From Marinobacter subterrani (GTDB taxonomy: Bacteria > Pseudomonadota > Gammaproteobacteria > Pseudomonadales > Oleiphilaceae): DNA of 64,000 bases. The stretch is from the NCBI RefSeq assembly GCF_001045555.1, contig NZ_LFBU01000002.1, positions 434,001 through 498,000 on the forward strand, in the 5' to 3' direction. Positions 38,864-40,526 of the stretch are shown here, piece by piece. Every line of letters begins with the position of its first letter. Position 1 is the stretch's first letter. Made by a program: the position numbers and the translations under genes. The notes beneath the pieces were generated by a model that made no database searches, had not been told where the DNA came from, and saw nothing but the letters and a program-made list of their open reading frames with translations.

Positions 38864-39619
38864 GTGCAGCAAAGCGCGTTTTATGAAGACGACACTACCC
38901 TGGCGCAGTACCTGGAGTTCCATTTCGGCGAGCGGTGGCATGGTGAGGCGAACTTTCCCAAGGCCCTGGCAGACGCCGCCATGGACGCCATGGACGGTCG
39001 GCCCTTGAATCGCGCCCTGGATCTGGGCTGTGCCTGCGGCCGCTCCAGCTTCGAACTTGCCCGCAAGTTCCGGCAGGTGGAGGGAATCGATTTCTCCAAT
39101 GCCTTCGTGGCCAAGTGCCAGGAAATGGCCCGGGAGAAAAAGGTGCGCTATGCCCGCCCGGAAGAAGGTGACCTGGTGAGCTACCAGGAGCGAACGCTGG
39201 CCTCTCTGGGGCTGGCGGAGTTCGCGGATCGGGTGGCGTTCCACCAGGGCGATGCCTGCGACCTGAAGCCGGAATTCACCAGTTACGATCTTGTGCTGGC
39301 CGGCAACCTTATTGACCGGCTCTACCAGCCTTCGCTGTTTCTGACCACCGTGCACGAGCGGATCAACGAGCTGGGGCTGTTGGTGATTGCCTCGCCCTAC
39401 ACCTGGCTGGAAGAGTACACTCCGAAGGACCAGTGGGTTGGCGGATTCAAAAAAAGCGGTGAGGACTTTTCCACCTTCGACGGGCTGAACGAGATGCTTG
39501 CGCCGCATTTCCGGCTGCTCTTTGAGCCCTGGAGCCTGCCGTTTGTTATCCGCGAGACCCGGAACAAGTTCCAGCACAGCTTCTCCGAGCTGACGGTCTG
39601 GGAGAAGGTGAGTCAGTGA
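38864..39619 (+). CDS. SAM-dependent methyltransferase, putative 4-mercaptohistidine N1-methyltransferase (OvoA C-terminal-like)
   Basis: This 251-residue class I methyltransferase has the SAM-binding loop ALDLGCACGRSSFELA (about 47-62). The N-terminal TLAQYLEFHFG and FPKALAD segments and the later PYTWLEEYTPKDQWVGG segment resemble the stand-alone relatives of the OvoA C-terminal domain, which methylate the imidazole of 5-thiohistidine to make ovothiol A. The GTG start has AGGAG nine bases upstream. The sulfoxide synthase part of ovothiol synthesis is not in the window. The family match is from memory of motifs, so the exact reaction is less certain than the fold. Confidence 0.7.
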   Translation: MQQSAFYEDDTTLAQYLEFHFGERWHGEANFPKALADAAMDAMDGRPLNRALDLGCACGRSSFELARKFRQVEGIDFSNAFVAKCQEMAREKKVRYARPEEGDLVSYQERTLASLGLAEFADRVAFHQGDACDLKPEFTSYDLVLAGNLIDRLYQPSLFLTTVHERINELGLLVIASPYTWLEEYTPKDQWVGGFKKSGEDFSTFDGLNEMLAPHFRLLFEPWSLPFVIRETRNKFQHSFSELTVWEKVSQ

Positions 39620-39650
39620 TCAGAACGAGTTTTTGTGGTGGCCTCCGAGG

Positions 39651-39684
39651 CTGTCATCAAACTGTCACCCGGTAAGCGTATTCT
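39651..39684 (+). promoter_or_regulatory. PhoB box with -10 element
   Basis: CTGTCAT-CAAA-CTGTCAC (39651-39668) matches the Pho box consensus at 17 of 18 positions, as two 11-base direct repeats. Ten bases further on is TATTCT (39679-39684), a -10 hexamer at the spacing seen in PhoB-activated promoters, in which the box replaces the -35. Predicted transcription start is near 39691 on the + strand. Confidence 0.65.
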
Positions 39685-39690
39685 GAGAAC

Positions 39691-39760
39691 TCATCAGGAC
39701 GACATGCATTGTGTTGTGCATCGTGTGAATGCTTTAGCCGGGGACTTCCCCGGTTTTTTT
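39691..39760 (+). ncRNA. Candidate PhoB-controlled small RNA or attenuated parA leader
   Basis: A transcript starting at the predicted PhoB promoter would run about 70 nt to an intrinsic terminator. It contains an internal hairpin (ATGCA 39704-39708 with TGCAT 39717-39721) and the terminator hairpin, and no convincing ORF. The layout (regulated promoter, short unstructured segment, hairpin, U-tract) is that of a trans-acting small RNA. Alternatively it is a leader that controls read-through into parA, whose start is 26 bases after the terminator. No experimental support can be seen from sequence. Confidence 0.45.
39738..39760 (+). terminator. Rho-independent terminator upstream of parA
   Basis: CCGGGG (39738-39743) pairs with CCCCGG (39748-39753) across a 4-base loop, followed by seven T residues. 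It could end the methyltransferase/eutBC transcript or the predicted short PhoB-dependent transcript. Confidence 0.85.
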
Positions 39761-39785
39761 ATGCCCGAAAAAAGGATGTCGCAAG

Positions 39786-40526
39786 ATGAGGACCATTGCG
39801 TTTTACAGTCTCAAGGGGGGTGTCGGCAAAACCGCGGCGGCGGTCAATATTGCCTATCTTGCCAGCCAGGCCGGCTACTCCACCCTGCTTTGGGATCTGG
39901 ACCCGCAGGGGGCATCCAGCTGGTATCTGGCGGGTGCCGGCGAGGTCAAGGGCCACAAGCTTTCCCACTTGCTCAAGGGCAAGACCCCCATCGCCGAGTT
40001 CATCCACGAAAGCGGCTACGCCAATCTGGATTTCATTCCCTCCCATACCAGTTTCCGGAATCTTGACGTAAAGCTGGACCAGGAGGACGAAGGCAACCTG
40101 ATCAAGCAATGGCTGGCGCCGCTCTCGGAGGAAACCAGCCTGGTGATTCTCGATTGCCCGCCTTCATTGTCCAGATTGTCCGAACAGGTTATCAAAGCGG
40201 CGGACCAGGTGTTTGTGCCGGTGATCCCCACCTGGTTATCCCTGAACAGCTGGAAACAGTTGCAGGCGTTTGCCAGGGACAAAAAGCTGAAGCCCTCCAA
40301 GCTGCACCCGTTCTATTCCATGGCAGACCGCCGCAAGGGCCTGCATCGGGAGCTGATCAATAACCAGGATGAGATCCTGCCCAAGGGTCTGAAAACCATC
40401 ATTCCCAACGCCAGTGTGGTGGAGAAGATGGGCGAGGAAGGCATCCCGGTGGAGATACTGGCGCCCGGCTCGGTGGCGGCAGACGCCTATCGCCGGTTGT
40501 GGAAGGAGATCCGGCGCCTGCTGTGA
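39786..40526 (+). CDS. ParA-family ATPase (orphan, MinD/ParA/Soj type)
   Basis: This 246-residue deviant-Walker ATPase has the motif K10-G-G-V-G-K15-T16 and switch segments LLWDLDPQGASS and VILDCPPS. No ParB gene, centromere-like repeats or replication gene are nearby, so it is not the chromosome partition ParA. Orphans of this type position large cellular assemblies or act in unrelated regulation. An AAGGA site precedes the ATG. The upstream PhoB box and terminator suggest phosphate-responsive control, but that link is inferred. Confidence 0.85.
   Translation: MRTIAFYSLKGGVGKTAAAVNIAYLASQAGYSTLLWDLDPQGASSWYLAGAGEVKGHKLSHLLKGKTPIAEFIHESGYANLDFIPSHTSFRNLDVKLDQEDEGNLIKQWLAPLSEETSLVILDCPPSLSRLSEQVIKAADQVFVPVIPTWLSLNSWKQLQAFARDKKLKPSKLHPFYSMADRRKGLHRELINNQDEILPKGLKTIIPNASVVEKMGEEGIPVEILAPGSVAADAYRRLWKEIRRLL

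Follow-up and report, generated by a model that had tools for sequence, protein, structure and literature searches.

Well-studied small RNAs (sRNAs) are dedicated to iron stress, to sugar-phosphate stress, and to membrane stress. For phosphate, the few cases found in our searches of the literature are distant (PhoS, PsiR1), contested (EsrL), or associated with predicted or absent PhoB sites (Sinorhizobium meliloti). PhoS is an sRNA of Bacillus that is induced by phosphate starvation (Li et al. 2024, via PMC12101431). As described there, PhoS resembles the unit reported here in that it has its own promoter and is induced when phosphate is limiting, via the phosphate two-component system. It differs in belonging to a Firmicute and in its described role of increasing PhoP translation as part of a feedback loop, and the likeness is one of description (PMC12101431). 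PsiR1 of the cyanobacterium Synechocystis 6803, again likened by description, is reported to be a member of the phosphate regulon whose transcript is induced by phosphate stress, and to be missing in the close relative 6714 (PMC5386190). The Escherichia coli small RNA EsrL has been linked to PhoB and phosphate (Jia et al. 2023, via PMC10294691 and PMC12351708), with accounts that differ: one source found no PhoB bound in K-12 in the region preceding esrL, and another says that PhoB represses it. Unlike EsrL as described there, the Marinobacter unit possesses an activating-type box at the −35 position that is conserved together with the RNA. In S. meliloti, sRNAs responding to phosphate starvation are reported, and a putative PhoB site is listed for the predicted candidates sm14, sm25, sm30, and smrC16 (PMC8829014, PMC2573895), whereas four up-regulated transcripts are given as lacking an evident conserved PhoB site (PMC2573895). 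Finally, PMC8829014 quotes Ruiz and Silhavy (2003) on an E. coli sRNA that PhoB induces and that is said to raise RpoS; by this description, it is similar in being an sRNA under PhoB.

Here we describe a stretch of Marinobacter DNA (39651–39760) that is, in our judgement, quite likely to be a free-standing gene for an sRNA of ~70 nt, activated by PhoB during phosphate starvation and acting in trans by pairing. No Rfam family matched it above the gathering threshold; the opuB motif, anti-hemB, and ncS16 were set aside as sub-threshold matches (14–17 bits versus gathering thresholds of 48–75). A search of the open-licence PMC literature found no paper on the RNA.

The predicted unit and its conservation within the genus

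The window, i.e., the whole 64-kb stretch of DNA that was analysed, forms part of a host genome of 4.45 Mb. Within it, the predicted unit is bordered on its 5′ side by a methyltransferase gene and on its 3′ side by a gene for a ParA-like ATPase (Table 1). In a PhoB-activated promoter, a Pho box stands in for the −35 element, the −10 then following 10–11 nt on; the site here was scored against the consensus CTGTCATAWAWCTGTCAY, two direct 11-bp repeats of CTGTCAT-N4. A sequence-only reading of the region had described a Pho box made of two 11-base repeats, a TATTCT hexamer exactly ten bases past it, a CCGGGG/CCCCGG terminator with seven Ts, and a parA start 26 bases beyond the terminator’s end, and all of these can be read directly at the positions given. 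The box is the only site of at least 15/18 on either strand of the window, and 20 dinucleotide shuffles of the window yielded no site of at least 16/18 and none of at least 15/18 accompanied by a −10.

Table 1. Features of the predicted promoter-RNA-terminator unit and its neighbours, in window coordinates
Feature	Position	Strand	Remarks
Pho box (PhoB site), −35 position	39651–39668	+	CTGTCATCAAACTGTCAC; 17/18 to consensus
Pho box repeats	39651–39661; from 39662	+	first CTGTCATCAAA; second CTGTCAC..
Spacer, ten bases	39669–39678	+	between Pho box and −10
−10 hexamer TATTCT	39679–39684	+	10 nt past Pho box
Predicted small RNA, ~70 nt	39690–39760	+	start ~39690–39692, inferred from −10
Conserved 5′ element, candidate seed	39690–39702	+	CTCATCAGGACGA; CAGGAC invariant in 23 distinct rows of alignment A2
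Internal hairpin, predicted	39699–39724	+	93.1% of cells paired, zero two-sided changes
Conserved stretch preceding terminator	39720–39734	+	ATCGTGTGAATGCTT; ATCGTGT invariant in alignment A2
Intrinsic terminator, seven T	39736–39760	+	stem 39736–39755, 8 pairs (6 G-C), T-run to 39760
Methyltransferase, OvoA C-terminal type (context only)	38864–39619	+	TIGR04345, 309.7 bits, cut-off 170
ParA-like ATPase (context only)	39786–40526	+	PF13614; below NCBIfam cut-offs

In a DNA search, 45 of 124 genomes of the genus gave a match: in 10 it covers the terminator only, and in 35 it covers either the unit or its RNA portion. In 30 aligned loci, TGTCA..AA..GTCA is invariant within the box, [T/C]ANNNT is near-invariant at the −10, and the RNA body stays close to CTCATCAGGACGACATGCATTGTGTTGGTGCATCGTGTGAATGCTTT before running into the terminator. 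A covariance model of the RNA only, with the promoter left out (R1), found matches in 35 of the 124 genomes, 34 at E<1e-10 and one at 1e-6. A second model of promoter plus RNA (R2) reached 41 of the 124 at E≤7.5e-10 and none of 39 other genomes of the family, with one clear new find (G083), although it was built, box included, from 26 sequences of the same set and hence provides no independent proof.

When the 35 R1 loci and five weaker ones were aligned, all 40 displayed a box-like best site followed 10–11 nt later by a hexamer with T or C at position 1, A at position 2, and T at position 6, in a scan that took the best-scoring site, permitted spacings of 9–12, and is biased toward finding something. 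The strict box core,.TGTCAY..AA..GTCAY, is present in 33 of these loci. Among the seven without it, the second half-site is weak in five (GGACAT in L089 and GAAAC in four copies of the diverged group 2, described below), and several of the 40 −10s read CANNNT. Of the 40 copies, 25 had been recruited through matches spanning the box. The other 15, recruited without box coverage, either by DNA-search matches starting past the box (10) or via R1 (5), include nine with the strict core.

Identity by region over 29 distinct rows is 49% in the 5′ flank, 87% in the box, 50% in the spacer, 74% in the −10, 96% and 93% in the RNA, 90% in the terminator, and 65% in the 3′ flank. Flank and spacer have thus drifted while box and RNA have been kept, which we interpret as selection on both. 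A T-run of 6–8 T is found in all 23 distinct rows. Alignment of the intergenic region over relatives, proposed by the sequence-only reading together with a search for a conserved seed, therefore bore out the joint conservation of box, spacing, −10, RNA body, and terminator; it also supplied a candidate seed in CAGGAC, which does not vary among the 23 distinct rows and is altered in diverged copies. About 80 of the 124 genomes are without a copy by R1 and R2, whose strict filters may overlook diverged copies, and the unit is therefore dispensable. Of the genus genomes searched, roughly one in three has the unit, and in these the predicted switch and RNA are inherited together. M. flavimaris is among the named carriers.

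The diverged copies comprise a second group of about 85 nt (G043, G044, G090, and G117, joined via R2 by G083) and three lone copies (G033, G122, and G120; E of 1e-4 to 1e-2) that are probable members. Group 2 and, by reading, the lone copies possess a box-like site, a −10, a partial CGAnnTGCAT-like core, and a terminator. Four group-2 copies (L081, L083, L084, and L085) lie 0.1–1.8 kb downstream of a ParA homologue (54–67%) on the same strand, an order that is the reverse of that in group 1. Outside the genus, searches of 39 other family, 390 order, and 369 class genomes (the order and class sets include the host genome and some nearer ones) gave weak or terminator-only matches, none of them convincing. 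On reading by eye, no Pho box is seen in a class-level match (L320), in a same-family match (L078), or in four weak matches from the genus itself (L080, L082, L090, and L091).

The Pho regulon and Hfq of the host genome

The host genome encodes PhoB (TIGR02154, 354.9 bits, cut-off 296.2) and, above cut-off, Hfq. Exact matches to TGTCAY-N5-TGTCAY number four in the 4.45 Mb, including the unit at 39651, and allowing up to one mismatch raises this to 49 sites genome-wide, versus 25 for the reversed pattern. Of 30 Pho-like loci returned, 16 were examined and six genes were named; several sites lie inside ORFs, and those tied to a phosphate gene are a minority of the 49. The named boxes precede phoB, phnC (TIGR02315, above cut-off), and pstS-like, OlsB-like acyltransferase, glycosyltransferase, and fatty acyl reductase-like genes, the last four being names that derive from sub-cut-off NCBIfam matches or Pfam domains. 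By reading of the hexamers, [T/C]ANNNT occurs exactly ten bases past the box at the pstS-like, phnC, OlsB-like, and glycosyltransferase genes, as it does in the unit; phoB has TGTAAT at ten bases, and the reductase-like gene has CAAAGA at ten and AAAGAT one base on.

Other Pho boxes of the host precede lipid-remodelling-type genes, at C1:1507514 (OlsB-like, L134), C1:1513633 (glycosyltransferase, L136), and C1:1434055 (fatty acyl reductase-like, L120). Judging from these boxes, it is possible that PhoB controls the production of phosphorus-free lipids and perhaps also fatty alcohol or wax metabolism.

Neighbouring genes, RNA structure, and alternative readings

Within the flanks examined, the 35 group-1 loci have a methyltransferase upstream in 30 cases and parA downstream in 18 (14 with both neighbours, 16 with the methyltransferase only, four with ParA only, and one with neither). 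The unit is therefore found where one or the other neighbour is absent, i.e., it is conserved independently of them. In the host genome the methyltransferase is a free-standing protein of the OvoA C-terminal type (TIGR04345, ovothiol pathway) encoded directly after eutBC, and many relatives have an additional, longer open frame of ~720–740 codons bearing an OvoA C-terminal-type methyltransferase domain. The host ParA has eight relatives at 90–94% identity, seven of them labelled Marinobacter and one a metagenome bin labelled Halomonas.

The sequence-only reading had offered two functions, a phosphate-starvation sRNA or a leader that attenuates parA. The latter, in which PhoB would drive transcription toward parA and the terminator would attenuate it, draws on the 26-base distance between terminator and parA and on the 18 loci that share this arrangement. 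It is contradicted by the 17 of 35 group-1 loci that lack parA downstream in the flanks examined, at least 12 of which have a convergent gene facing the terminator. In ten loci scanned with Pfam past the terminator, nine had such a gene (GntR/FCD in seven, a response regulator, and an aminotransferase-GntR protein) and the tenth gave no family, while tblastn placed a convergent nitroreductase past the terminator in three further loci. Conversely, three genomes keep parA after the methyltransferase without the unit: G075 (L270; a 58%-complete genome) and G109 (L271), where parA follows directly, and G036 (L269), where a terminator remnant alone is left before parA and box and RNA body are gone. 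All three are apparent losses of the unit from between the two genes. In G066 (M. similis), a ParA homologue (67% identity) and the unit are more than 1 Mb apart. Moreover, no competing antiterminator structure appeared in the consensus folds. Synteny led us to reject attenuation of parA as a general function, and we regard the leader reading as very improbable, although some read-through into parA may occur in the host genome.

An equally slim chance attaches to the idea that the terminator does no more than close a eutBC-methyltransferase transcript at its 3′ end, with the Pho box a chance match or a relic. The upstream methyltransferase in 30 of 35 copies and the terminator remnant of G036 would suit it; yet box and RNA body are conserved where spacer and flank are not, and five of the 35 copies have box and RNA without a methyltransferase in the flanks examined. 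Further evidence against it comes from 20 methyltransferase loci, chosen out of a longer list, in genomes that lack a group-1 copy (G043, which is among them, carries a group-2 copy at another place). All 20 are devoid of the unit, and the best sites listed for them lack the TGTCA..GTCA core. R1 gave two weak matches there, at E 0.003 to the terminator remnant of G036 and at E 0.07 in L274. Pho scores range from 13 to 17 in the 40 aligned copies versus 9 to 13 in the 20 RNA-less loci, so that the ranges meet at 13. The loss of the box with persistence of the terminator, envisaged by the sequence-only reading as counter-evidence to its own proposal, is seen in part in G036: the box is gone, but so is the RNA body, and the terminator is only partial. 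The terminator may nonetheless also end the eutBC-methyltransferase transcript and serve both.

It was also conceivable that the RNA is translated, since an SD-like AGGA (39696–39699) lies 4 nt before an ATG (39704) in the host genome, in a frame that stays open through the rest of the unit. That ATG, 2–6 nt past CAGGAC, is present in 11 of the 23 distinct relatives, one-base length differences among relatives shift the frame, and no stop codon closes it ahead of the terminator. A leader peptide or small ORF was consequently rejected, and of all the readings weighed here a small protein is the one we find hardest to credit. The earlier statement that no ORF fits inside the unit holds in effect for these same reasons of ATG and frame, even though an open frame (39635–40066) traverses the unit without a stop before the terminator.

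The internal ATGCA/TGCAT hairpin noted in the sequence-only reading does fold, giving −25.7 kcal/mol together with the terminator (z of −2.96), and over 23 distinct relatives 93.1% of its cells pair. As a covarying stem it fared less well: no pair changes on both sides in these relatives, and consensus folding yields a covariation term of only −0.13. The hairpin drawn by RNAalifold itself has a two-sided change at pair 23–30 in three sequences, which are near-identical rows (L024, L029, and L030). For hairpin plus terminator, the covariation score was reached by 5 of 500 shuffles, with two-sided changes confined to one terminator pair. A reading as a structured RNA was set aside on the strength of the −0.13 term and the lack of convincing hairpin covariation. 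Binding of a protein instead of pairing, e.g., by CsrA/RsmA through the conserved AGGA, would fit a CAGGAC that is invariant in alignment A2 and that several predicted folds leave partly unpaired, and the CsrA motif resembles the AGGA element. CsrA-titrating RNAs, however, usually have several AGGA motifs, whereas this RNA has one conserved AGGA alone outside the terminator, and the element is altered in diverged copies. We consider such binding improbable, if a shade less so than the parA leader.

Candidate targets and proposed function

The best seed candidate is the conserved 5′ end CAUCAGGACGA. The reverse complement of the 5′ element, CGTCCTGATG, was sought in 14 carrier genomes, and what follows concerns the sites listed, those of G000, G065, G081, and G084 and one of G062 falling outside the list. 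Sixty listed sites were read (all of those in G003, G005, G015, and G030 and 14 of 15 in G035, with RNA genes set aside), and clustering was performed on these 60 plus 30 further loci. Among the sites listed, the sole cross-genome cluster readable as a translation start is at dctM, a TRAP permease gene, in G003, G005, and G035 and, by coordinates, in G038, G062, and G000. At a search threshold that admits proteins of about 60% identity or more, dctM has homologues in 110 of the 124 genomes. In the 30 best loci, exact CGTCCTGATG occurs at the dctM start in 7/9 carriers versus 15/21 non-carriers, i.e., it is kept just as well where the RNA is missing, and dctM was dropped as a target. Independently of the RNA, the dctM start overlaps the stop of the preceding ORF (TGATG) within a mostly conserved CGTCCTGATGGAGCT (L239–L268, locus position ~1500).

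A search for AGGAN{2,9}CCTGATG in two genomes returned 59 and 27 matches; 15 loci were read in each, and the ppiB start was common to both. Duplex energies between the RNA and ten start regions did not pass the 1% point of 1000 random 90-mers for any region. The duplex value was reached by 15 of 300 mononucleotide shuffles for phoB and by 4 of 300 for the pstS-like gene, neither being significant after ten tests. Nucleotides 16–23 of the phoB ORF (L147, 1574–2266), GTCCTGAT, are a perfect complement of AUCAGGAC at 39693–39700, in the predicted 5′ end of the RNA. It is possible that the RNA pairs with phoB in a feedback arrangement, though a chance match may explain the complementarity, given that some ten regions and more than one octamer were compared. 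A true target among phoB, pstS, and ppiB would be expected to keep complementarity to CAUCAGGAC within its nt 1–40 in carriers only, or to compensate for the change in those genomes in which the RNA reads GGACA.

Of the two functions first offered, the phosphate-starvation sRNA is well supported. It is supported because the Pho box, its distance to the −10, the −10 itself, the RNA body, and the terminator are conserved together, because PhoB and similar boxes at phosphate genes are present in the host genome, and because both the RNA and a best site with the box core are missing from the 20 methyltransferase loci of genomes that lack a group-1 copy. The unit has the traits of a PhoB promoter, with two direct 11-bp repeats at −35, a −10 at 10–11 nt, and PhoB encoded in the genome. 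It likewise has those of an Hfq-type sRNA: its own predicted promoter, an intrinsic terminator, a length within 50–250 nt, no conserved ORF, a U tail (6–8 T), and Hfq in the genome, the binding of Hfq being putative. We infer transcription, PhoB binding, Hfq binding, and pairing in trans from such traits. In the proposed mechanism, phosphorylated PhoB would bind the Pho box under low phosphate in place of a −35 element and bring sigma-70 RNA polymerase to the −10 (39679). From there, transcription would begin near 39691 and end at the terminator (39760), and the resulting RNA, with its conserved 5′ end and U-rich tail, would pair in trans with mRNAs, most likely with Hfq, and so adjust expression in phosphate starvation.

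Phosphate-regulated sRNAs are already known, and what this unit adds is unusually clear sequence evidence for a predicted PhoB promoter that is direct and conserved. It is tempting, if rather doubtful, to see in the RNA a Marinobacter phosphate counterpart of RyhB, i.e., a non-coding arm of the Pho response that would curb phosphate-costly genes or feed back on phoB. In any event, a cassette of ~110 bp that combines a predicted PhoB site, RNA, and terminator in a third of the genus genomes examined offers a directly testable case.
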